Shown piece by piece: positions 12,255 to 55,376 of a stretch of 64,000 bases of DNA. The notes beneath the pieces were generated by a model. That model was not told the DNA's origin and made no database searches. It saw only the letters and a list, made by a program, of their open reading frames with translations. A program made the position numbers and the translations under genes. Source of the DNA: Aphrocallistes beatrix (Eukaryota > Porifera > Hexactinellida > Sceptrulophora > Aphrocallistidae); the NCBI GenBank assembly GCA_963281255.1, contig OY725488.1:3991925-4055924 (forward strand). The letters run 5' to 3'. Position 1 is the first letter of the stretch, and every line of letters starts with the position of its first letter.

Positions 12255-13576
12255 GGGCATTCAATAAGTTCGTAACCCTACCTATCATTTCTTTGCTAGC
12301 CTTATTTAAATTCAGTTCTAGTGTGATTATTACAGAGCCATATTTAAACTCCTATTTACTGTTTAGTTTATCTAAATTGATCAAATACTTGAGAAGTTAC
12401 ATCATTTTTACATTTGGCTGTTTGACTCACAGTGATATTTATGGCTTCAAAAATACCAGAAATTAATATAGAGCATAGAGCCTATATTAAAATCAGGTCG
12501 CTTCTTGGAGACACTCCGAGGAATATTTTCAATGATCTATCCCGAGTTTATGGCAGTGATGCTTGTTCAGAATCTACCGTCAAGAAGTGGAGTATTCGTT
12601 TTCGTGAGGGGAGAGAGGCGATAGCAGATGACCCTCGGGCTGGAAGACCGGTTACGGCGACCACCACTAATAATATCTCTCTGGTATCCAAAATGATTGA
12701 AGAGGAACCACATATCACGATTGAGGGTATTGCTAACCATGTTGACTTGTCATCGGGAACAGTTCATGAGATGTTTGCATCTTGGCTTGAGGAAAGTTTG
12801 TTCCCGTTGGGTCCCGCATTTACTTTCTGACAGTCAAAAGAAGGCTCGATTGGATGCAGCTAAGTCTCTCCTGAAAATTTATGGTCATTGCAATGAAAGG
12901 CGATTATTCGAGATCTGTACAGGAGATTAAACCTGGATACGGTTTTCAGAGCCATTACGTAAGGAACAGAATAGAGTATGGCTCCCGAAAGACACAAATC
13001 CACCTGCAATCCCCCGTCCGGACCACTGGGGCCGCAAGGTTATGTACACGATATTCTTTGATGCACATGGCCCAGTGTGTCAAATTTGCACCCCAAAGGG
13101 TAGGACTGTTACAGGAAACTTTTATGCAACGGTGATACTTCCTGCTATAAAGAAACACTATTTAGAGCGTCGTCCAGGATGTGGACTCAGGGGGATAAAA
13201 TTATTGCACGATAATGCCAGACCCCATAAATCGAAGCAGGTGAAGGACAAATTGAAGCCCATGAGGCTTGTCGAATTAGATCACCCTCCTTATAGTCCAG
13301 ACCTAGCACCCTGTGACTTTTGGCTATTTGATGGTCTCAAAAAACACCTAGCAGGGAAGACTTTTGATGAGAGGATGCAACTTGGGAGGACCATTAAACG
13401 GTACCTTAGAGACATCCCGGAAGAGGAGTATAAAAAGACATTTTATATGTGGGTAGAGCGGTTAAAGCTCGTAGTTAAGTACAAGGGAGATTACTTTGAA
13501 CATTTAGTAAAGTTTTGATATGATATAATGTGTATTACCCCTTTTCCATACTGAGTTACGAACTTTTTGAATGCCC
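12255..13576 (+). mobile_element. mariner element 1 (DD34D)
   Basis: The inverted ends GGGCATTCAATAAGTTCGTA and the complement around 13545-13576 are flanked by TA at 12253-12254 and 13577-13578. The 1322-bp length is normal for mariner. It carries a single broken transposase gene. Confidence 0.9.
12432..13518 (+). pseudogene. mariner transposase, frameshifted and with a stop
   Basis: The N-terminal helix-turn-helix half (12432-12780) includes RFREGREAIADDPRAGRP. A frameshift near 12770 moves reading to VCSRWVPHLLSDSQKKAR. A TAA at 12928-12930 replaces the Glu after the first catalytic Asp (TGD, stop, TW). The rest is intact, with LLHDNARPH (second Asp) and YSPDLAPCDFW (third Asp). I count 34 residues between these two Asp, so DD34D. 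The C-terminus ends near the expected length. Mariner transposase does cut-and-paste at TA; this copy cannot make a full protein. Confidence 0.9.
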
Positions 13577-18531: not shown

Positions 18532-19876
18532 CAGGGTGGAACATAAGTGCTGTCCTATTGAGTTATGTCAAATAAATGGAATTTTAAGTTATAGTATGCT
18601 ATGATTCACTTATCAATATAATCTCCATCTCTTTCTATTACAAGTTTGATACGATTAGTCATATCTGCCACCAAGTTCGTCAAAATGTCTGGATCTATCT
18701 GACTCCACGCTTTTTTAACTATTTTCACAAGGGTATCAATATCACTTGGTTGTCCCATCTCATTGACCTTGCCTTTGACGATTGCCCAAAGATTCTCGAT
18801 GGGATTTAAGTCTGGGGAGTTGCCTGGCCATTCTTCCTTCCTCCAAAAGTGGGGGAAATTGTTTTTGCACCACTCCTGAGTCAATTTAGCCGTGTGGGCG
18901 GGGGCGCCATCTTGTTGAAAGATAATCTCGGACATGTTTCTTGACATCGCAAGCTTTAGGATTGAGCCCTTCTTGGCCCTACGTTTTAGAGCATCCTTAC
19001 AAGTGTTTGCCAGAATAAAATCACGATAATAAGCTCCGGTTATAGTTTGGCCTTTGGGTACAATGTGCAGATCTGACAGAGCCTGGTGTGACATCATACC
19101 CCACACATGGACTTTAGGAGGAAATTTCACCTTGTAGCAAGGTGGGACAACTTCAGGGTTTCGTGCCCAAACACGATCATTTTGGCGATTAGGGGTAGAG
19201 AATAACTCAAAAACGGACATTCGTCTGACCATAAAACCCTTTTAAAATCATCAACAGTCCACTCTTGGCGCTCTCTGGCAAACTTGATACGATTTTCCTT
19301 CTGACGATTCGTTAGTTTCGGCCTTTTCATCCGTTTGTAAGATTTAGTACCTAAAGAATTCGCCAAATATCTTCGAACAGTGGTGTGAGTGATCGGGTAG
19401 CCCATGCTTGTTATTCTTTTAGCCAATTTTCTGGTAGATTGCCTTCTTTTAGTAACTGATTTAGCAATTACGATTTTTGCCACACGGTGAAATTTCGGCG
19501 GTCGTCCAGACCGCGCTTTTGTCTCTAGTGTTTTCCCAGAATTGTGAATGCTGTACCAACGTCTAATCGAGCGTTCACTAACGTTAAGGGTCTGAGCAAC
19601 TTCTTTTTGCGTCATACCTGCTACAACCATGCCGATTGCCTGAGATCTGAGCTCTAAACCGTGGTCATTGACATCCATATGCAAAAAATAAGCGCCATAA
19701 ATAAGGACAATATATAAAATTCAAAAATTAATAATTCAATTAGGAAATGCAAAAAAAAATGACCTAATTGATAGTTTAAATGATTTTTGAAGTATAAAGC
19801 CTGTTATACTTATTGTTGCATAATAAAAGCAATTTCTAATTTATTTGATATAAGACGGCACTTATGTTCCACCCTG
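18532..19876 (-). mobile_element. ITm-type DD37E transposon, copy 1
   Basis: Ends CAGGGTGGAACATAAGTGC are inverted at 18532 and 19876 and flanked by TA. The 1345-bp element holds one transposase gene on the minus strand with a single frameshift, so it is relatively young. Confidence 0.9.
18606..19684 (-). pseudogene. DD37E Tc1-like transposase, one frameshift
   Basis: On the minus strand the N-terminal part (19684 to about 19215) has a paired-type helix-turn-helix (GMTQKEVAQTLNVSERSIRRW and SGRPPKF) and the first catalytic Asp in VLWSDE. A missing base near 19217 shifts the frame; the rest (to 18606) has KVHVWGMMS, FQQDGAPAHTA (second Asp) and SPDLNPIENLW (Glu). I count 37 residues between these, so DD37E, the spacing of the ITmD37E group first described in mosquitoes. 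Total length of about 345 residues is normal. Apart from the frameshift the reading is clean. Confidence 0.9.
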
Positions 19877-28420: not shown

Positions 28421-28432
28421 GTTCTGTTTCAT

Positions 28433-28605
28433 GATATGTTGACTCGAGTGATATATTGACACGCTTATTAGATTATATAGATATCAACCATGGATATTAT
28501 ATTACCGTGATATATTGACACGCTTATTATATTATATAGACATCTACCATGGCTATTGTAATTACCGTGATATGTTGACACACTTAATTAAGTTAATCTA
28601 AGTGC
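28433..28605 (+). repeat. Left inverted repeat of the Ginger-type element, with direct subrepeats
   Basis: GTGATATATTGACACGCTTA occurs twice (28448 and 28508) about 60 bp apart, followed by TGATATGTTGACACACTTA near 28568. The right end (34060-34208) carries the same three blocks inverted. Such reiterated blocks are candidate transposase-binding sites. Confidence 0.85.
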
Positions 28606-28672
28606 AATATTGACATGTTTGCTATATAAATACATGCAAATATAGCAATGTATATGCTACTTGTTCCTTCAA

Positions 28673-31600
28673 ATGGATTCTCATGGATATTAAAAATTAA
28701 TTCATTTCTTGCGTAATGGTGATCTACCATTCGAAATTGAACAAACTTCCTCCAAAGCCAGAAGATATGCCAGGAATAACTTTAGACGTAAAGCGGCATC
28801 TTTTCGAATCACAAAAGAAGGAAAACTATTCAAAGTGAGTAGTCAATAAATTACAAATGTTGAATATGTCATATTTACCAAGTTTATATATGGTTTTTAA
28901 ATATTTTAGCTGATTCAAAATCGATCTGGGAAAGTTGATCAATTTGAATACTCCCTGATGTTTAAAGTCCCTGAAATTCTGGAGCTCTACCACACAGATC
29001 ATCCTGGAATTAATTCAATGCTGTCTTCAATACGTGAGAAGTACTATTGGGTTGGAATGACGGATGAAATAAAGAATTATGTAAGTTTACCAATTTATTT
29101 ACCCTAACTATTTCATCCTTATAATCGAACAGAGCTGTTCGGAGTGCCAGCCATCTCCTTGAGTGACTGTATCCTCGATCCCAATCTTATTGTTGAATTT
29201 CCTTCACAAAATAGCATATTATGTATTTAATGCACGGTTGATCTCCACTTGCTACAAATGTCCTACTGATTGACTAGGAAAGATCTGACCTAAGGTCGAG
29301 CAGTCTATGATCAGTTTTTATCTTATTTCAAGTATTTCGTAGTTAACCAGTTAAGGACTTTCAAATTTTAAGCTGTTTCATAATATACAGTAAAATGTGC
29401 TTGAATAAAAGAAATACATATACTACATATTCGAAGCCTGATTTGTAATCGTATTGCTAAATATCCTTCCTATCTGAATAGCCCGGTAAGAAATCCAAAC
29501 TTAGACAATCGCTTTTAAATTTTTCTGGTATTATGAAAGCCCTTTTCGATTTCTTTTTGTTTACCCCCTCTACTAGCACATCAATACAGAGACCCGGTGT
29601 TTGTTTGGGTATCTAAGTTTTTTGAATTGTAATTACCTTGTAATTACTGCCACACAAGAATCTCTTTAAAAACCACTTTTGTATATCGTTATCTGCAAAA
29701 TTTCCATATTAAAAAAGATAAAATGGAGTAAATTTCAATTGTAGTTAATGTGGAGTTTATATTATTTACATACATAGTACTTCTAGGTTAAATCTTGTCA
29801 CGGATGCCAGGTAACAGCTGCAAAGCCTGCCTCTACAGCCACAACGAGAATTACAACCAATAGTTCCACCTGAGGGGCCTTGGCAACACGTCGGCATCGA
29901 TCTCATCAATAACATGCCTGCTAACGAATTCGGATATTTGCATGTTCTGGTTGTGGTGTGCTATCTTTCGAAATTTGTAGTCGCACGGCCACTTAAGACA
30001 AAAACATCGACAGAAGTTTTAGCTGAGTTACGCAATATTTACCTGACATTTGGGGTACCAACCATAATTCTGCATGATCAAGGCAGGGAATTTATTAGCA
30101 AGGTAAGTAAACACACCAACTAATCTTGAGATGAATGCTTTAAATTATCTATATTATTGAAATACAATTGTTGTACAAGTATATTTGTTCTTTTGTCCAT
30201 AATTAATAATAGAAAATACCATACGCCGTAGGAAGCTGAAATTTATAAATTCACAAATAGGATGCATTCAACCACAAATAGATTGCATCAATTTGAGTTT
30301 GGATTCAATAAAGTTATACGTAGTCAATAAATGTAATACAGTCAGGGTCGCTTAATATGAACATTCGTTTATTATGAACTAACCCCCTGGTCCCAATTTC
30401 ATTTTTTTAGATATGGGAATTATATTGAATCAAGTTCGCTTAATATGAAGTATCTATATTATGAACAGATTTTTTGGTCCCCTGGTGGTTTACAATAAGC
30501 GACCCTGACTGTAATGGTTTTCATTGATTGCGTCAGAATAGAATACTCGAATTATTAGTTATCTGCGTTCACTAGTGTCTAAGATGCCCGAATGTGCTGT
30601 TAGCGAGGCTGCAAAGCTTCTCTATTTTCTATTGAAGTAACCGTAAATATTCTGATATTATGATGCTACTACTACGATTATGTAATGAAAGTACGTACGT
30701 ACATGATGATGACTCTACTACTATTCTAAAATAGGATGAAATCGAGTTACGATCATACAATAAAGTTTCCACAAATACTTCACCTTTTCCTAAAGTGCCG
30801 TGACCAAGCAAACATGTGGTTGTACAAGTAATTATTTCTGACTTGACAAATTAATGACATCTTTCGTTGACTTTAATTTCAACTTACGATTTACAAAATT
30901 CAATGCATCATGTGACGTCATCTATCTGATTATTTGAGTTCGAACAAGGTAATGATGAAGAATTGTTATGTCTCTTTAGGAATTCAAAGATTTCCATCTA
31001 CAACTTGGCGTCGATAACAGGAATACAACGGCATACCATCCACAAAGCAACGGATTAGTTGAATCACACAACAAGATTCTTAAAAGGTACTCACGAATTT
31101 ATCACACTGTTGTAAAGTTAGGGAGCACAATGTATATTAATACCTCGTTAATAAAATATGCAAGAAATTCGAGAAATTACGATTAAACTCAGATGGTACC
31201 TGGCCAACAAAGTTACAGCTTGCAGCATTCGCTGCCAACACTAAGATCAAAAGAGCCACCAAATTCTCTGCATTCGAATTGATGTTTGGACGGAAATGTG
31301 ACCCAGCAACCTTACTCAAATTAAGTAATAATGCCAGTAAGGAAGAGGTTTCGAATGTCAGTGAAGAAGAGCTATCTGACAATGATTATTCTCAAACGGA
31401 ATCTCATGACCCTTTCAGTCTTCCTCCAGATTTGATTCATGAACAGGTAAATGAATTAAAAAATATTCGTACTCAGAATGAAATGGAAGCACGTATGAAT
31501 GTAAAAGTAGAACAGTTCAGACAGAAAAAGATATTCGACAAAAAAGTGATGGATAACAGGTAAGTCCAATCATAAAAATGAAATAACTTATTGCTTTCAT

Positions 31601-32905
31601 TGCACTGAGGTGTGCTAGAAGTAATGTTCATTTTGTACTTTTAGATCGGAACTCCAAAAGGGTGACTTATTTTTAGTAAGAAATATCTCCAAGGATAAGA
31701 AACTTCCAGGGACTGCGAAACAGTTGAAATATCTCGGCCCATTTGAAGCAGAAGATATCGTTAAAAGTCACGTATTAGCAACAGCTAAAACAAAAAAAAA
31801 CAAAAAGTATCCCCTGCACTTGACTAGAAAGTACAATCGTCGTAAGATTCAGGTGATTTGTTTCTATTATCAAGTGTTTAAATTGTTACCTCGTACTACT
31901 TGTTATTTTTTAATTAAAAAATATTGTTTAGATATCAGATGCAAAGTCACCTCCTACACCAGAGTTACCTCTCAGCATTTGTTCAGTGTCTTCCAAAAGA
32001 CTAATCACTAATGATGGAGCATGTTATCCTCCCAAACGACACAAGGTATATTACAAAATACATTTCTATATGTATATTAGGTGAGTTTTTAACAAAATAG
32101 ATATGTTATTTATTTTCAAAATCAATTAGAAATCAACCACCAATCTCTATGTGTACGGATTCGAGCACGATTCTATAATAAGTGATCTTAATTCCCTGCA
32201 GGTAAGAAGCTATTGATAATTTGATATGCAAACTGAATCCACGAAATTTGTTAACCTGTACTCTGTGTTAAACTGTTAAATTGTTGAAAAAAATCATTTT
32301 TTGGCATATTGTAAATTCATATTACATACAAGTATTATTTGAATATCAAAACACACTATCTATTTTAGAACGAAATAATCCAAAGCATAAAAAGTGGCAC
32401 GCCATTTTCTCCTCTTCATGAAGAGTTGATCAATACAACCAACATACGAATGTGTCCAACTTACACAATGCTGTTCTCTTTTCTCAAAGATGTTGACGCC
32501 TTCTCATTGGTATGATTAATATATATACTAAATACTTAATTTTGGACGAATCTTGCGTACATTGAATTATATAATCATGGTTGTAGTCGAATTAAATGAA
32601 TATTTTACAGCGAGAAGAAATGATCGATGTATTCCTCAAATGGAGTTTGGAAGCATTCAATGCAACTTCAGATAACAAAGTGTGCATTGAGTATTCACAT
32701 AAAGTTATCTATCCAGTGGTAAGTTTCAAAAAGACAAATCTATCTAACCGTGAACATTTAAAATTTCTTTTTCTCCTATAGGTTTGTGAACATCTTGAAA
32801 ACAAATATTTCACTGCTTCTCCAACTAAAGCCAATTCTATCCATGTGCACGTACTATATCGACTTCAGATTCTTTCAACTCTAGTCCATGCTACCACCCT
32901 ATTAC
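28673..32905 (+). pseudogene. Ginger-type integrase gene, about 11 exons, with breaks
   Basis: Proposed exons: 28673-28834, 28910-29080, 29787-30102, 30980-31111, 31165-31559, 31645-31852, 31932-32045, 32130-32201, 32369-32509, 32611-32718 and 32782 onward, all with GT-AG introns and matching phases. Exon 2-3 forms an HHCC finger (YHTDHPG, REKYYWVGM, SCHGCQ). The integrase core has WQHVGIDL (first Asp), LHDQGREF (second Asp) and HPQSNGLVESHNK (Glu). Exon 6 has a GPY/F-like YLGPFEA. Exons 7-10 are not recognised. Breaks: TAA at 28688 just after the likely start, a shift near 29833 (or a 28-bp insertion with GT-AG ends), and a shift near 32905 before the OTU frame. The catalytic triad is intact. 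It is probably dead but recently so. Confidence 0.8.
30339..30511 (+). mobile_element. pogo/Tigger-type MITE in Ginger intron 3
   Basis: CAGTCAGGGTCGCTTA at both ends (inverted), TA flanks, 173 bp. It is inside the 30103-30979 intron, so it does not break the gene. Confidence 0.85.
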
Positions 32906-32906
32906 A

Positions 32907-33431
32907 ATGCTTTGGCAACAAGAAATATGCAACAAGATGGGTCTACAATTCATAAAAGAGATAGAGCAGCATAGAGACTTATCAGGACAGCTTCTTCCTC
33001 ATTTGACACCGTGGCAATGCGACCCTATTGAAAAGGACGGGAACTGTTTCTTTCGTTGCATATCTCAAATAATATCTGGGACTCAAGCACATCACCAACA
33101 ATTGCGAGGCGAAGTATGCCGGTTTATTGCGACAGATGGTAGAGAATTCACTCAAAAATATCTAAGGACAAAGTTCTATAAAGAGACTTCCTCTTTAGCC
33201 TATCTTAGGCAATCAGCGATGACTCAGAGTGGAATATGGGCTACTGATGTCGAAATTGTTAATGTCGCGAAGATGTTCAGCACGGACGTCTTCGTTGCAA
33301 CAAAGCAGCATAGCCCTGAGCATCAGTGGAGAAGAATTGATTGGCTACGTTACTCTGGATGCGATTCTACGAAGTCACTTGGTATCTATATCACCAACTA
33401 CGACAACCATTTCGACCTGTTACAAGGTTAA
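32907..33431 (+). CDS. OTU cysteine protease domain of the Ginger-type element
   Basis: This 174-residue open frame has the OTU signature: PIEKDGNCFFRCIS with the catalytic Cys in DGNC (33045-33047), LRGEVCRFI, the SGIWATDVEIVNVAKMF helix and a C-terminal NYDNHFDLL with the catalytic His (33408-33410). OTU enzymes cleave ubiquitin or ubiquitin-like linkages. Exon 11 begins at 32782 in a different frame, so either a one-base shift separates the parts or this region is translated on its own from the ATG at 32907. The frame is clean to TAA at 33429-33431. Domain assignment is strong; what the transposon uses it for is unknown. Confidence 0.8.
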   Translation: MLWQQEICNKMGLQFIKEIEQHRDLSGQLLPHLTPWQCDPIEKDGNCFFRCISQIISGTQAHHQQLRGEVCRFIATDGREFTQKYLRTKFYKETSSLAYLRQSAMTQSGIWATDVEIVNVAKMFSTDVFVATKQHSPEHQWRRIDWLRYSGCDSTKSLGIYITNYDNHFDLLQG

Positions 33432-33561
33432 TGAATCATGGATGTGAATCGCACAGATCAGTCAATTCTAATGAAATAATTGTAGTTAACTAATGATTGA
33501 TTAACTGAATACTAGCGAGCTAATATTTATTGCTTCTCTTCCGTGTTTTAACGACACTATT

Positions 33562-33597
33562 TAATAAAGCTCAAATTATGCTCCGTATGCAATAAAA
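33562..33597 (+). promoter_or_regulatory. Candidate polyadenylation signals of the Ginger-type gene
   Basis: Two AATAAA hexamers (33562 and about 33591) follow the stop codon at 33431 by 130-160 bp. Confidence 0.4.
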
Positions 33598-34213
33598 AAC
33601 TTAATTAACAAACTTTTGCCTAGCCAGTTTACCTATAATATTGAACCTATGTATAGCGATCACCTGCTCAACGCAGCCAGCGGGCTATCCTTTCCAGTCT
33701 CTTGTGGGCCTAAAACTGTCTATAACGGCCACTCTTCATGTTTAGAACTCCTTACATGTGTTTACTACGTTCACTATTCTGAATGATGATCTACTAGTTC
33801 TAGCATCAGTAACATAAGTACGCAGTAACGCACATCAGATTGTTGCTGCATCGCATCGTTACAACCGAAAATGCATGCCAACCGTCCCGTTTTTGCATGA
33901 AATTTCCCTTATATCTCATTCTTTTTGAGTCTACGTATAATACCTTTCTATTGTGTCTCGCCATGTCAAAGCGAAATTCAACGCCGCATCCCGCTTTCAT
34001 TATCACTGAAGTTGGTAATATATCAAAACAAATCTGCTAATAAACAATATTCGATTAATTTAACGTGTCAACATATCACGGTAATTACAATAGCCATGGT
34101 AGATGTCTATATAATATAATAAGCGTGTCAACATATCACGGTAATATAATATCCATTGTTGATATCTATATAATCTAATAAGCGTGTCAATATATCACGC
34201 GGTCAACATACTA

Positions 34214-35498
34214 CGGGCGTTCAATAAGTTCTGATCATTAAGAGATAACATTACTATATTGTACAAGTACCATAATTCGCTCATAGAATATGTTTATTCT
34301 ATCAATTACCTAAAAGTCAGTTTTTATTTCATCTTGATATTCCATATACTTATTGATTCACACATTATTTTGTAAAACCGATTTTGCATACTAATCAATT
34401 ATGGCGTCATCAAAGAAGAATTCTAATATTGAGCAGAGATCGTACGTTAAGATTCGTACTCTGCTCGGGAAATCTGCGCACGATATACATGTTGACTTGG
34501 TGCAAGTCTACGGTATGAAAGGTGCTCTATCTTATCCTGGAGTCAGACGATGGGTCCAGCGCTTTAGAGCAGGTAGGGAGTCTGTGGAAGATGACCCTCG
34601 GGCTGGAGCACCTGTTACGGCGGTTGTCCCCAAGTATTCCAGTGCTATTAAGGAACTCGTTGATTCAGATCCTCATATCACTGTTAAAGAGTTAGTTCAT
34701 ATTATTGGGATCTCAACGGGAAGTGTTGATCACATTCTAAAGTCAACACTAAATCTATCAAAGGTTTGTGCCCGATGGGTCCCTCATTGCTTAACAAAGG
34801 CCCAAATGGCAACCAGGGTAAGATGTTGCCGAAACCTCTTAAAATTGTATAAAGGAGCTGACCCTCGCCGTTTATTTGAAGTAGTGACTGGTGATGAAAC
34901 GTGGGTACAGTATAGCACACCATCTAAAGAAGCGAACAAGGTGTGGAAGGAGAGACACTCAGATCCACCAATGATCCCTAGGCCCGATTTCAGGTCATCC
35001 AAGGTGATGTACTGTATATTCTTCGATGGATATGACCCAATTGCTCAGATAATAGTTCCAAAAGGACAAGGACAAAGACTTTTTAAACGAAGACCTAGTA
35101 CTGGAGCGAAGGAGTTAAAATTATTGCACAATAATTCCCGCCCTCACAAAACCAAGCAGGTCAAAGCCAAAATTACAAGCATGGGGATGGTTGAGCTTGA
35201 GCATCCACCCTACAGTCCAGACCTAGCTCCTTGTGACTTTTATTTATTCCCGAAGCTAAAAGAGTACCTTTCTGGCCGCCATTTCGACACAAATGCAGCA
35301 CTGGGTTCGGCGATTTTCCAGTATCTAAACCTTATACCTCCAGAGGACTATAAAAAAGTATTTGAACAATGGTTAGAACGTTTACAATGCTGTATCAATA
35401 ATCATGGGGAGTATTTTGAAAAAATAAAACATTAACAACTTGTTTATTGTGTATTTTAAATGTTTACAGTGTACTGATCAGAACTTATTGAACGCCCG
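34214..35498 (+). mobile_element. mariner element 2, nested in the Ginger right end
   Basis: Ends CGGGCGTTCAATAAGTTCTG and the inverse are flanked by TA (34212-34213 and 35499-35500). It lies between the inner subrepeats and the outermost 13 bp of the Ginger-type element and is therefore younger than it. Confidence 0.9.
34401..35435 (+). CDS. mariner transposase, open but catalytically defective
   Basis: A 344-residue uninterrupted frame spans the whole element: N-terminal helix-turn-helix (RRWVQRFRAGRESVEDDPRAG), first catalytic Asp in VVTGDETW and third in YSPDLAPCDF. The second catalytic Asp, HDN in mariner 1, is Asn here (LLHNNSRPH), with 34 residues to the third. Compared with mariner 1, about 14 residues are missing after PKG (the TGxFY segment). 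Frame conservation contrasts with loss of catalysis. It may simply be a young deletion copy; a retained DNA-binding role is possible but not shown. Confidence 0.9.
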   Translation: MASSKKNSNIEQRSYVKIRTLLGKSAHDIHVDLVQVYGMKGALSYPGVRRWVQRFRAGRESVEDDPRAGAPVTAVVPKYSSAIKELVDSDPHITVKELVHIIGISTGSVDHILKSTLNLSKVCARWVPHCLTKAQMATRVRCCRNLLKLYKGADPRRLFEVVTGDETWVQYSTPSKEANKVWKERHSDPPMIPRPDFRSSKVMYCIFFDGYDPIAQIIVPKGQGQRLFKRRPSTGAKELKLLHNNSRPHKTKQVKAKITSMGMVELEHPPYSPDLAPCDFYLFPKLKEYLSGRHFDTNAALGSAIFQYLNLIPPEDYKKVFEQWLERLQCCINNHGEYFEKIKH

Positions 35499-35868
35499 TA
35501 GTATCATGAAGCAGTTCTTAAAATAAATATAATATTAGATACTTAAAACTTATTATAATAACTATTTTTTCTTTTATTTACTAAAATACCCCATTTAACA
35601 GGTTTCTAAACATAAATAGTCATTCATATTCCTTGATCATATCATTTCGAAGTTAAGAAAGTAATTTTAATGAAATTATTAAATTTGGGCTTAGTATCCA
35701 CCTTAGCAATGTTCACACATTTAGAGGCCCAAATATAGTGCGAAGTGCGCTTCGCTTGCTTGCGCTGCGCGGCTGGCAGACACTTTCTATCCGCCAGAGG
35801 CGCCCTCCGGGCTCCTGAGGTCACACTGATGAATTATAAGATATATAACTTCTCTAAATATGTCTATC

Positions 35869-40290: not shown

Positions 40291-41642
40291 CAGTAAGACG
40301 ACATAATTATTTAGAATCAAAGAATTCTCGAGTTCACTATATTAAATAGTCTCTTTCCTGAAACGAATAGTCATAAAAAAAGTTATTTGTTAGTATTTCA
40401 ATATTTAATAGGGTATCCACTATTATTGACTACCATTCTACATCTTTTTGGCATAAAATGCCAATATGGTTCCAAAAATTCCGGACTTATCCCATTCCAA
40501 ATCTGGTTCAACTTGAGCTCAAGTGCAGAAACTGTAGTAGGCCTTCGGTGCGGGAGCCTATTGAGTTGATATTTAATCCAAGCGAATAAATTCTCTATTG
40601 GATTAATATCCGGGCTTTGACTTGGCCAATCTAACAACTTCCGAGGCATATTTTCTTCCATAAACGTCTTCACAACTTTGGACGTGTGCTTAGGGTTGTT
40701 ATCCTCTACAAGAAACCAGCTATTTTGATGGAAAACGTCTGCCTGGGATAGTAAATGCCATTGTAGGATTTTGCAGTATAAGACTCCTGTTAAATTCTGA
40801 CGGAATATACATAAGGGAAAAGTTCCCATTGAATAAAATGCTGCCCAGATGTGCACCTTTTTCCTATGCTTAGGGACAGTTTGCCAGCGTTTTTTTCAGC
40901 TTTTGTCCATATCTTCACTCTACCTCCATGCAACCAGAAGGAAGCTTCATCACAAAATATAGCATTCATCCAGTGTTTTTTCTCGTATTTCCTTGCCCAA
41001 TCAATTCTTTCAATACGGTTCTTCTCGGATAGCATGAAGGTTTTAAACGGAAACACCTTCTTGTACTAGTGTCTTGCAAGTGCTCGCTCAACAGTACGTT
41101 TACCCACGGCAATATTTAAATTTGCATGCAGATCTTTGATAGTCATTGCTCCTTTAAACCTACGAATCTGTTGCGAAAGACTTCCTTTTATTGCCTGGTA
41201 CTTTACTGCTGGTCTACCGGCACCTACCCCATGTTCAAGAGTGCGGCCTGTCTTAACGCAGTTGAGTGTATTGTAGTCCGTTGCCAGACTAACGGATAAA
41301 AGTTGAGATATAGCCCTAGGAGTGTGCTTACCAACTTCGGATAATACTTGTATTTGTTCCCGCTTAAGTTTCTGGGACATTAGAGAAAGTTTGTAAGCTA
41401 TTTAATGAAAATATATTTAATAAAAACATAGAGATTGAAAAAAATGACAAAAACTATGAAACCTCTGAAGATTCCACAGCCGCATCATGTAAAGTGAAGT
41501 GCAAGTTGCTATCCTAAGCATTCTAGTAGTTCCACAATACACAGAAATATAAATAAAATTGATTTCGTCTATGACCATAACTTATTGAATTGATTGGTTT
41601 TCTAACAAAAACAAAATTCTAAATAATTATGTCGTCCTACTG
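40291..41642 (-). mobile_element. Tc1-type DD35E transposon
   Basis: Inverted ends CAGTAAGACGACATAATTAT and ATAATTATGTCGTCCTACTG are flanked by TA. 1352 bp, one minus-strand transposase pseudogene. Confidence 0.9.
40398..41380 (-). pseudogene. DD35E Tc1-like transposase, one stop and one frameshift
   Basis: Minus strand from MSQKLKREQIQVL at 41380. The N-terminal region has GAGRPAVKY. An in-frame TAG at 41068-41066 follows ERALARH. The first catalytic Asp is in IFCDEASFWLHG. A base appears lost in an A-run near 40858 (after SIGK), shifting to VHIWAAFYSMG. The second Asp is in LVEDNNPKHTS and the Glu in SPDINPIENLF. I count 35 residues between them, one more than Tc1 itself. It is inactive but complete in outline. 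Confidence 0.85.
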
Positions 41643-46893: not shown

Positions 46894-47502
46894 GTGACAA
46901 CTTTGAGAGGATCATTATTTTCTCGGCATCTTGAAACATTTCGGAGACTTCGCTCACCGTTATCACATAAAAAAGCAATGGAATCAATTACTATTGGTAT
47001 ACTCCACGTTGGGGCTCCTGCTGGGGGTCAAAATCCCGTTACATGTGCTTTTGTTAAGCTTGCAATTAGCTATGGACACAAGATTTTCGGAATTAATGAT
47101 GGATTTAAGGGACTTGCGAATGGAGATTTATATCAAATCGAATTAAGTCATATGGTTACATGGATGACTACTGGAGGATCAAAACTTGGTACCAATCGGT
47201 TGTTGCCTGAAAGGGATAGCTTTTGTGATATCGCAGCAAATTTAGAGAAATTTCAAATTCAAGCAATTGTTATTGTAGGGGGCTTTGAAGGATATCATAG
47301 TCTTATACGAATGGAAACTGCCCGTCAAATTTTTCCAGCCTTCTGTATCCCAATGCTATTTATTCCTGCAACGATTAGTAATAACATTCCTGGTACTGAA
47401 TATACTCTAGGTACTGATACTTCCTTAAATGTGATTCAGGAATGCATGGATTATCTGAAACAATCTGCCTCTGCAAGTAGAAAAAGAGTATTCATTATTG
47501 AG
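46894..47502 (+). CDS. PFK: 6-phosphofructokinase, internal exon (C-terminal half)
   Basis: This is one exon of ATP-dependent 6-phosphofructokinase, which phosphorylates fructose 6-phosphate in the committed step of glycolysis in the cytosol. The acceptor TTTTCTACTTAG precedes 46894; the donor GTTAGT follows 47502. The 203 codons are open and in phase 0 at both ends. The first 30 residues match the linker between the two halves; then come GILHVGAPAGGQNPV, INDGFKGLANG, TTGGSKLGTNRLLP, VIVGGFEGYHSL, IPATISNNIPGTEY and SASRKRVFIIE, all in order as in the regulatory C-terminal half of animal enzymes. Residue conservation and the clean frame argue for a functional host gene. Exons for the N-terminal half were not found upstream. 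Confidence 0.92.
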
Positions 47503-47837
47503 GTTAGTGTCGCTCTACTCTACTCCTCGACAAGGTTTAATTTACTGAGATATTGAGTTCATAATTTTATTTAACATTATTGCCTTCTGGGATACCTTCT
47601 CAAGAACAATTTGTTCCATTTAGATATGCTTTTGTTTAGAAATTGTCTTCATTAGTCATTTCGATCACTACATTATTTTGTGTCTTCAGCTTGCTTTATC
47701 CAGTCGGAGAAATAGTAGAGTGTACCCGAAATCTGATTTCCAAATTTTGTACCATCTTATATTCATATGAAGGGTGGCTATTGACATTACATTACGTGGT
47801 TCTTTTACTACCAACCTCGATGTTAATAGCCACTATC

Positions 47838-49886: not shown

Positions 49887-51080
49887 TGAATGCCCGAGAT
49901 CATGGTTTAGAGCTCCATACGCAGGCCATTGGAATGTTGAATGCAGGAATGGCTCAGAAGGGTGTTGCATTAAAGCTCCGAGTTAGTTTGAGATCAATCG
50001 AACGTTGGTGACACGAAACTTGGAGAATCTCAAAAGACCAAAAGTCGCCCCGGACGAAATTCAACTGTTAAAAAGGCCGCCAAAATTATGATTTCAAAAT
50101 CTCTCGGTAAGAGAGGAAAATCTACTAGGAAATCTTGTTCAATCTACCTTTACTGTAATTTTGATTATTATTATTAATTTTCATTTCAAAATCTCTTGGT
50201 AAGAGAGGAAAATCTACTAGAAAATCTTGTTCAATCTACCTTTACTGTCATTTTGATTATTATTATTAAACGCAAGAATAGTTATCAATAGGGGATATCC
50301 TATATCCCATTCAACTGTTTACCGATATCTTAGGGATAGCATAGGAGTGAGATCCTTTAAAAGGTCAAAAATCCCGCGATTGACTGCGAAAATAAAGGAA
50401 AACCGTCTCAAATTTGCTGAATCTCGCAAATAATGGACTGTTGAAGATTGGAAACGCGTTTTGTGGTACGACAAAGCACCCTTTCAATTGTTCAATACAC
50501 TTAATAGACAAAATGATAGTGTTTGGGCTCAGAATTCAGCTGAGGTTGACCCTTGTGTTTAAGTCAAATTTCCTGGAAAAATTAACGTCTGGGGCATGAT
50601 GTCACATCGTGCAGTATCTGAGTTGCATATTGTCCCGCGAAAACAGACGATAAATGGTTGTTACTACCGAAACTATATTCTGGAAATGACCTGTGAGGGT
50701 GCCATTGAACGTAGGTCGGATTATGGTTCAATAATGGAGAAGTCAATGCTCTCAAACATGCACAATTTTATTTTCATGCAGGATGGTGCCCCAGCACACA
50801 CAGCAAATTTGACTCAAGTCTGGTGTGCAGAGCATTTCCCAGGGTTTTGGCGTAAAGGGGAGTGGCCAGGCAACTCACCCGATCTCAATCCTATCGAGAA
50901 TCTATGGTCGATTTTGAAGGATAGTGTCAATCAAATGGAGAATGTCACTAAAATCGAAGACCTGATTTTTCAAGTAAAAAATGCCTGGGCAAGCATTAAT
51001 CCGAATATCTTAGAAATCTAGTCGGCAGTATGCCTGATCGTATTAAATCAGTAATAGATAGTCGAGGAGATTACATAAAT
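49887..51080 (+). pseudogene. DD37E Tc1-like transposase, decayed
   Basis: 49887-50010 keeps the N-terminal part (ARDHGLELHTQAIGMLNAGM, then SLRSIERW and a stop). A 92-bp tandem duplication follows. About 50400-50500 has WTVEDWKRVLWYDKAPF with the first Asp. 50596-51021 is open with MMSHRAVSELHIVP, IFMQDGAPAHTANLT (second Asp) and SPDLNPIENLW (Glu), again 37 residues apart. Related to the copy at 18606-19684 but older. Confidence 0.85.
50091..50268 (+). repeat. 92-bp tandem duplication inside the transposase pseudogene
   Basis: ATTTCAAAATCTCTYGGTAA starts at 50091 and again at 50183; the two units differ at only a few sites. It is out of the coding phase. Confidence 0.85.
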
Positions 51081-53817: not shown

Positions 53818-55376
53818 GGGGCCTTATTCACTAACAAAACTTAAGTTTTGCTTAACTTAAAACTTAAGTATAACTTAAGCAAAAACTAAGTATTTGCTTC
53901 ACTTTAAGCAAAAACTAAGTTTTGCTTAACTTTAAGCAAAATCTAAGTATTTGCTTAACTTTAAGCAAAGACTAAGTATTTGCTTAACTTGAGAAACCGC
54001 AAAGAATTTGCTTGCTTTACAAAAATGTCAAGAATTTAATACTTTTGAATTATCCAAATACTGTAATCACAATCAAGTTCCATGGTTAAATTATATGAAC
54101 AATAGTCCTATTAAATAGTTATAAATTTGTTAAGAAATATTCTAGTTTAGTTAGATTTCATGGCTTCTGCACTAAGTTTACTTGAGATTGAAATTAAAAT
54201 TATTTAAAGGAGTTTACGTCGCCAAAGAGTTTTTAGGGATCGACTTAACCCAATGGAGGCATATTCTGATTTCGATTTTATCGCTAGATACAGAATAACG
54301 AAGTATTAGTTTGTAAACCTCTTGAACAAAATTTCCATCAAACTTCATCGATCTACTGCTCGTTCCCACTCAATTGCTCCAACAACACAACTAGCTGTAG
54401 CTCTGCAGTTCTTAGCTACTGGAACGTTTCAGACAGTTATCGCATCCGCACATGGAATCTCGCAAACGTCTGTATCGAGATGCGTAACTGCTGTGACTGA
54501 AGCATTAACCAGCATAGCTCCAGCATATATCAAATTTCCGAATACAACTCGACAAAGGGTCATTCAAGAATATTTCTTAAAAAAATACAAGTTTCCACTA
54601 GTTCTAGGATGTATTGATGGTACCCATGTTCCCATCCTTGCGCCATCAACGAATGAGGATATCTATGTTAACCGAAAGGGATTTCACTCTATAAACATCC
54701 AAGCAATTTGTGACCATGAATTTCGCTTCATCAATGCTGTTGTCAAATGGCCCGGCTGTACTCATGATGCTTTTATTTGGCGTCAATCAGGCATCAACCG
54801 GGAGATAACAAGTGGTGGGATTGAAACTGACCATGGGTAGTTCTTAGGTGATAGTGAGTATGGATTACGTCCTAATTTAATGACTCCTATAACTTCTCCA
54901 GGTACACCTGGGCAAAGAAGGTATTATCGGGCTTTCCTTAAAGTTCGTCAAACAATTGAGTGTACTTTCGGTATCTGGCAGAGTCGTTGGAGGTCCATGG
55001 ATAAAACAGGTAGGGCTCTCTGTTATAGTCCTGAAAAATGTTGTAAAATAATCATTGCTACTATGGTGCTGCATAACATGTGTATCTGTTATGGACCAAA
55101 GTGTAAAAGATTTGTGAATCTTGGCTAAATGCAACTTTGGCTGAGCCAAAGTGTTGAGTTAACCTAAATTTGATGGGAGCATCATACATCATGGGTTGAT
55201 AAGAAATTGTAGATTTATTTAATCTTATTGCGTTATGCGTGAGTGTAGTAAATATTATGATCACCAGTTGAGAAAATCCTTTAACGCTAATATAAAACTC
55301 ATCCATGTTAACATTAGCAATGCACAATAATATTTAAAAATATTAACAATTCAACAAATATGAGTCATTCGCACTA
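53818..55376 (+). mobile_element. PIF/Harbinger element (left end and transposase)
   Basis: GGGCCTTATTCACTAACAAA at 53818 looks like a Harbinger terminus. It is followed to about 54000 by subterminal repeats of CTTAACTTTAAGCAAAAACT, unit about 33 bp. No matching right end was found, so the boundary is open; it may extend to about 56700 if the second-ORF remnant belongs to it. Confidence 0.65.
54160..55128 (+). pseudogene. Harbinger (HARBI1-like) transposase, three in-frame stops
   Basis: One frame runs from ATG 54160 to TAA 55126 with no frameshift but three internal stops: TAA 54205, TAG 54307 and TAG 54838. Visible family features in order: RRQRVFRDRLNPMEAYSD near the N-terminus, a helix-turn-helix (SAHGISQTSVSRCV), LGCIDGTHVPI (first Asp), NRKGFHSINIQAICD, FLGDSEYGLRP (second Asp), then QTIECTFGIWQSRW (Glu). 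The DDE triad is intact. About 322 codons is a normal length. Inactivated only by point mutations, so relatively recent. Confidence 0.9.

Follow-up and report, generated by a model that had tools for sequence, protein, structure and literature searches.

Among DNA transposons, Ginger elements are closely related to Gypsy integrases. As Bao, Kapitonov and Jurka (2010, PMC2836005) describe them, Ginger1 elements are 2.6-7 kb long, have terminal inverted repeats (TIRs) of 40-270 bp and CCGG or CCGT duplications, and encode, with 0-4 introns, a YPYY motif, an H2C2 finger, a DDE core and a GPY/F module, with a C-terminal OTU or Ulp1 domain in all but one. The same authors judged them to form small families of low copy number, with excision unexplained, and suggested a part in transposition for OTU and Ulp1, giving DNA repair as one example. 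Here we analysed a 64,000-nt stretch of the sponge Aphrocallistes beatrix (assembly GCA_963281255.1, contig OY725488.1, positions 3,991,925 to 4,055,924), hereafter the window, in which an earlier note, made from the letters alone, had recognised a Ginger-type transposon with a gypsy-like integrase, a GPY/F-like module, an OTU protease and a 4-bp duplication. Our analysis confirms this observation. We hold with high confidence that the element is a dead member of a Ginger1-like lineage that has expanded in this genome and whose sister families were recently mobile.

Results

The window element is bounded by inverted repeats and a GTTC duplication

The element spans window positions 28425-35513 and measures 5,802 bp after removal of a nested mariner and one TA. 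Its left end, TGTTTCATGATA, begins at 28425, its right end, TATCATGAAGCA, finishes at 35513, and the target-site duplication (TSD) GTTC adjoins both (28421..28424 and 35514..35517). The left TIR (28425..28591, plus strand) contains internal repeats about 59 bp apart. Within the right TIR (minus strand) sits the mariner (34214..35498, plus strand), with TA at each side and a 346-aa open reading frame (ORF) matching HTH_48 (E 9e-7); it divides the repeat into an inner part (34055..34213, of which the last two bases are one mariner TA) and an outer 13 bp (35501..35513). The arms 28445-28591 and 34055-34201 are 96% complementary across 147 nt, and the total TIR reaches about 167 bp once the outer 13 bp beyond the mariner are included. 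The GTTC flanks had previously been thought to appear only when the mariner is taken out. The flanks themselves are there, yet they stand either way; removing the mariner is needed for the continuity of the right TIR, not for GTTC.

An 11-exon gene joins a Gypsy-like integrase to an OTU protease

Spliced alignment, with a composite peptide as guide and GT-AG introns only, resolved 11 exons and 10 introns on the plus strand, with a predicted single protein of about 810 residues. Exon 1 (28673..28834) shows a possible YPYY-like order, Y/F..P..Y/F..Y/F, upstream of the finger. The H2C2 zinc finger begins in exon 2 (28910..29080; Integrase_H2C2, PF17921, E 4.4e-11), and its second cysteine pair, SCHGC, lies in exon 3 (29787..30102) together with both catalytic Asp (rve, PF00665, E 1.4e-8). 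An alternative second pair, SCSEC at about 29134, was rejected, as the sister families align to SCHGC. Exon 4 (30980..31086) supplies the catalytic Glu; its PF13683 (rve_3) match, E 6.9e-4, is under the cut-off, and the D35E spacing is present. The core reads D-58-D-35-E with all three residues kept, and the integrase matches those of PFV (8.5e-25) and Ty3 (7.2e-19). Exon 5 (31165..31559) encodes the C-terminal part of the integrase region; a second spliced alignment of the window copy adds a tiny false exon near 31122, exon 5 then starting at 31174. Exon 6 (31645..31852) carries the GPY/F-like module, recognised from the family alignment and without a Pfam match. Read by eye, its motif is GPF in the window and GPF or GPY in most sister rows, the exceptions being GTF (L010; such labels denote genome loci), GPV (L046), GLQ (L047) and GPC (L055, L056).

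Exon 7 (31932..32045) is weakly conserved. A conserved middle region then runs through exons 8 (32130..32201), 9 (32369..32509) and 10 (32611..32718) into the start of exon 11 (32782..33431), which ends with the OTU protease and the stop codon. The OTU match has E 4.6e-8, and the exon shows DGNC and a C-terminal NHF. The HHCC finger, the D-D-E core and the OTU domain with DGNC and His, all read earlier from the letters, are thus borne out; the Integrase_H2C2, rve and OTU matches all exceed their cut-offs, and no further Pfam family does so among the element's own exon pieces scanned. Exon 1 of the window copy contains a stop, and the reading frame is broken in exons 3 and 11, so this copy looks dead.

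The gene structure recurs across the genome. In 8 of 10 loci, spliced alignment gave 10-11 exons with matching main boundaries; L011 (17 exons) and L033 (3) depart, as there the aligner ran on across insertions or introns. Further families show the same exon blocks, some with fewer exons (8 in L042; L036 and L043 partial). Exon peptides are roughly 40-79% identical among the families compared, and the DNA matches to those same families fall largely over exons.

The OTU domain and the middle region are conserved and constrained

A seven-row OTU profile matched OTUD1 (1.8e-9) and OTUD5 (1.4e-8) among nine PDB sequences; one row comes from a different element, L029, with wrong letters at its start, so that small errors in these E values are possible. 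Each of the seven rows has the catalytic Cys and His, and in two of them Tyr replaces the Asp of DGNC. L029 itself (L029:1281-4226, minus strand) has a 981-aa ORF with no integrase match and a C-terminal OTU related to that of Ginger (31% identity; PF02338, E 2.6e-9). At least five places in the genome score equally, and another type of transposon may have this OTU module in common with Ginger.

The middle region, aligned as rows of 85-135 residues from 13 elements, retains an invariant L, H, L, Y and V, although identity to the window's row is 15-55%. In L042 and L045 it lies within one exon. Four single rows gave no Pfam match better than E 0.1, and a profile of the region had no credible PDB match: the best, 'Non-structural protein 1' (E 0.0095), was taken as chance, and the other six were at or above 0.35. 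Judging from this lack of Pfam and PDB matches, the middle region may be a new domain. Exons 7-10 had been suggested as such a domain; exons 8-10, together with the first part of exon 11, are indeed conserved, constrained and without credible matches, and exon 7 falls outside.

Between families, the ratio of nonsynonymous to synonymous substitution rates (dN/dS) was 0.06-0.16 for the integrase (5 of 15 pairs finite), 0.06-0.27 for OTU (5 of 21) and 0.12-0.32 for the middle region (10 of 21), the remaining pairs being saturated; L009 and L019 were left out, and L022, L042, L044, L046 and L047 were modelled without pairing. By these values the middle region is under purifying selection, as are its integrase and OTU neighbours. 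Close pairs gave weaker signals (0.31-0.58 for the window copy and L009, 0.53-0.55 for L018 and L019), which fit the expectation for decaying copies.

The lineage has many copies and recently mobile members

With the integrase exon as query, the best 150 of 675 candidates score as matches in the genome. The best 150 of 437 do so for the OTU exon, the L029 kind of element included, and some matches to either exon are fragments of one copy. A termini pattern built from six families had 227 genome matches against 2 for its reversed control; the bare 12-base end pattern was discarded as a copy counter, being too loose (66 matches against 25). The main exon blocks recur across other families, and full units measure 5.2-7.2 kb with one gene model each. 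The count of copies, ends and duplications that the earlier note had suggested as a check hence gives many copies, recurrent ends and, mostly, 4-bp TSDs.

L055 (contig 10; 5,692 bp) and L056 (contig 14; 5,705 bp) both have spliced models free of stops and frame breaks. They are 99.9% alike, with 4 mismatches in 4,741 bp, and 99.5% alike in another 1,049 bp that overlaps this stretch slightly (2 mismatches and one gap). Their duplications differ, GAGC and GGAC. Since these near-identical open copies lie on separate contigs with different TSDs, a sister family has moved recently; recent transposition explains the pair best. All nine copies of the window family examined, the window's included, are broken, so this family is decaying. 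L011 and L012 share flanks, indicative of a segmental duplication.

Two Ginger copies, L033:356-4121 and L035:399-1619, point in opposite directions within related repeats (about 83% alike), both inserted at the same GGCC. At L043:376-1844 a 1,469-bp Ginger derivative lies inside a repeat, some of whose empty copies adjoin other Ginger integrase exons, that is, Ginger nested in Ginger.

The duplicated target is GNNC

Among 100 of the 227 pattern matches, GNNC precedes 93 ends, against a background of 3.1% of 4-mers in the genome sequence examined. The base before the 4-mer is A in 88 and G in 12 of these ends; T was excluded there by the search pattern, so the preceding base is biased, whereas GNNC is not. 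Nearest facing ends carry an identical 4-mer in 20 of 28 pairs. Some of these 20 go back to a single event: L011/L012 do so, and two equal C2 pairs near 1.53 and 1.55 Mb may. At least one of the 8 mismatched pairs (C2:1713455) connects two different elements. In ten insertions examined at both flanks and chosen for matching ends, the 4-mer is always GNNC, preceded by A in 8 and followed by T in 9.

We then joined the flanks of eight insertions and looked for unoccupied sites, scoring 40 of 4,476 candidates. For four of the eight, sites with the 4-mer once each could be aligned: L043 (96-100% over 200 bp at six places, of which two were aligned), L033 (two places, 98%), L035 (99% at best) and L022 (about 82%, the flank containing a 15-bp gap). 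At L045 a match runs 29 nt across the junction (97%), outside the aligned set, and for the window, L011 and L047 no unoccupied site was seen among those scored. This lineage duplicates GNNC, in most cases inside A-GNNC-T, a target that is new relative to the CCGG/CCGT reported for Ginger1 by Bao et al.

Alternative readings of the element

An integrase of Gypsy/retroviral type with a GPF motif could also be what survives of a Gypsy long terminal repeat (LTR) retrotransposon, its inverted LTRs mistaken for TIRs; inverted LTRs are indeed offered as one possible origin of Ginger1 TIRs in PMC2836005. Of the reverse transcriptase (RT) matches, none of the best 150 of 713 RVT_1 places lies inside the window element, and the nearest starts 780,812 bp from its integrase exon. 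Across 150 integrase places, an RT start within 6 kb occurs at 3, where uniform chance predicts 2.7, and within 10 kb at 7, against 4.5 expected. Moreover, OTU belongs to the same gene model, the units are bounded by 4-bp duplications, and five in-genome Gypsy integrases split from 18 Ginger rows with full support (100) in the Shimodaira-Hasegawa-like approximate likelihood ratio test (SH-aLRT). This tree came from a quick search, is unrooted, has one long branch (Gypsy_L050) and contains in-genome rows only, so it separates the two groups and cannot place the lineage within Ginger. Neither clustering inside Gypsy nor RT nearby, which the earlier note had named as grounds for rejecting its reading, was seen in this tree or among these RVT_1 places, and we regard a Gypsy remnant as very improbable. 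Separately, two of the RT matches listed, at C7:4288315 and C13:981781, each have a Ginger OTU match some 2 kb away; the two OTU matches are related and the layout agrees between the places, which may reflect duplication of a block.

Assignment to Ginger2/Tdd or to Polinton/Maverick instead of the Ginger1 lineage merits just as little credence. Polintons carry further genes, and here each 5.2-7.2 kb unit holds one gene model; Polinton duplications are also given as 6 bp. For Ginger2 speaks a TSD other than CCGG/CCGT, animal Ginger2 also making 4-bp duplications in the account of PMC2836005; as described there, however, Ginger2 has neither GPY/F nor YPYY and prefers RTATAY, whereas this gene has GPF and a YPYY-like motif and its target is GNNC. 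The least probable reading, which we give hardly any weight, is a domesticated, Gin-like host gene. A multi-exon gene with an integrase core would suit it, as in Gin-1/Gin-2 and Imagin, but TIRs and a TSD flank the gene, D, D and E are kept, the genome holds many matches and the window copy is broken. By contrast, the Ginger-type reading agrees with the domains, the copies, the duplications, the empty sites and the lack of an associated RT.

Surroundings of the element and other observations

Other transposase ORFs lie around the element at 12931-13515, 18609-19720, 40401-40895, 50563-51018 and 54310-54837 (Transposase_1/DDE_3, HTH_Tnp_Tc3_2, DDE_Tnp_4), and window positions 46894-47553 hold a coding piece of phosphofructokinase (PF00365, E 1.2e-49). 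Elsewhere, a mitochondrial COX1 frame at L049 (contig 28) has 14 TGA, 0 TGG and 16 AGA codons, with TGA read as Trp; several of the AGA positions are presumably ones that are usually Ser. Such codon use would suit a protostome without being specific to that group; the earlier note had inferred an arthropod-like genome.

Discussion

The ends, duplications, unoccupied sites, recent copies and conserved gene of this lineage are observed directly. Its enzymology, whether it is excised or copied, and what the GPF module, middle region and OTU contribute are inferred, in a provisional scheme. The H2C2 finger and DD35E core would bind to the TIRs and connect the ends of the element with target DNA, by a strand transfer staggered by 4 bp at a palindromic site, mostly A-GNNC-T, that would duplicate GNNC. 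Multimerisation is the probable role of the GPF module, the middle region is likely to serve as an adaptor or to oligomerise, and OTU probably deubiquitinates either the transposase or host proteins of chromatin or repair. With many diverse, partly recent copies and a strict palindromic target, the integrase's target choice, excision and the role of OTU become directly testable.

Several points weigh against this picture. Neither the sequence of the TSD nor base 5 of the window end follows the published Ginger1 pattern. GNNC is absent at 7 of the 100 ends (of 227), 8 of the 28 end pairs lack identical 4-mers, and L015 and L024 each have a single end that departs from GNNC. The spliced model leans on a composite query and GT-AG introns only, the window copy carries one stop and two frame breaks, and the predicted structure of the OTU exon alone is unusable (mean predicted local distance difference test score (pLDDT) 36, predicted template-modelling score (pTM) 0.29).

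Compared with known systems, the element belongs to the Ginger superfamily: its transposase is Gypsy-integrase-like, it has TIRs and a 4-bp duplication, and no RT lies in the unit among the best 150 of 713 RVT_1 candidates. With Gypsy LTR retrotransposon integrases it shares H2C2, D,D-35-E and GPY/F; unlike those elements, it has no RT found with it and possesses TIRs and OTU. Like Ginger2/Tdd, as far as PMC2836005 describes them, it combines a Gypsy-like integrase with TIRs and a 4-bp TSD in an animal, but it differs in its GPF and YPYY-like motifs and in lacking the RTATAY preference. Imagin, a crustacean gene derived from Ginger1 and described in PMC12863088, is likewise a multi-exon integrase gene of Ginger1 origin; in contrast to our element, it is single-copy and domesticated and has lost the DDE triad and the inverted repeats.

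The closest match is Ginger1 of the 2010 account, with which the element shares a Gypsy-type integrase with H2C2, DDE and GPY/F, a C-terminal OTU, the TIR and element size ranges and a 4-bp TSD. It departs in three respects. The duplication is GNNC (GTTC in the window) rather than CCGG/CCGT; in the literature searched, including passages of PMC12863088, PMC10045372, PMC10294476 and PMC12440569 and with Repbase and most subscription papers outside its scope, no GNNC target was found for Ginger. The window ends, TGTTT on the left and TGCTT on the right, do not follow TGTNR, which has a purine at base 5, although the sister families of L047, L055 and L056 start with TGTTG and do; we do not take this mismatch to exclude the Ginger superfamily, and the same account gives the pattern as also shared with Gypsy LTRs. 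Finally, 10 introns are modelled here against 0-4 in its Table 1. Since target, fifth end base and intron number all differ, we place the element, by its architecture, in the Ginger superfamily as a Ginger1-like lineage and a variant, and not as Ginger1 in the strict 2010 sense. We lean towards regarding it as a distinct Ginger lineage, with its own A-GNNC-T palindromic rule, an 11-exon gene, an undescribed domain between integrase and OTU, and well over 100 copies, recently mobile, in an animal genome of about 100 Mb.

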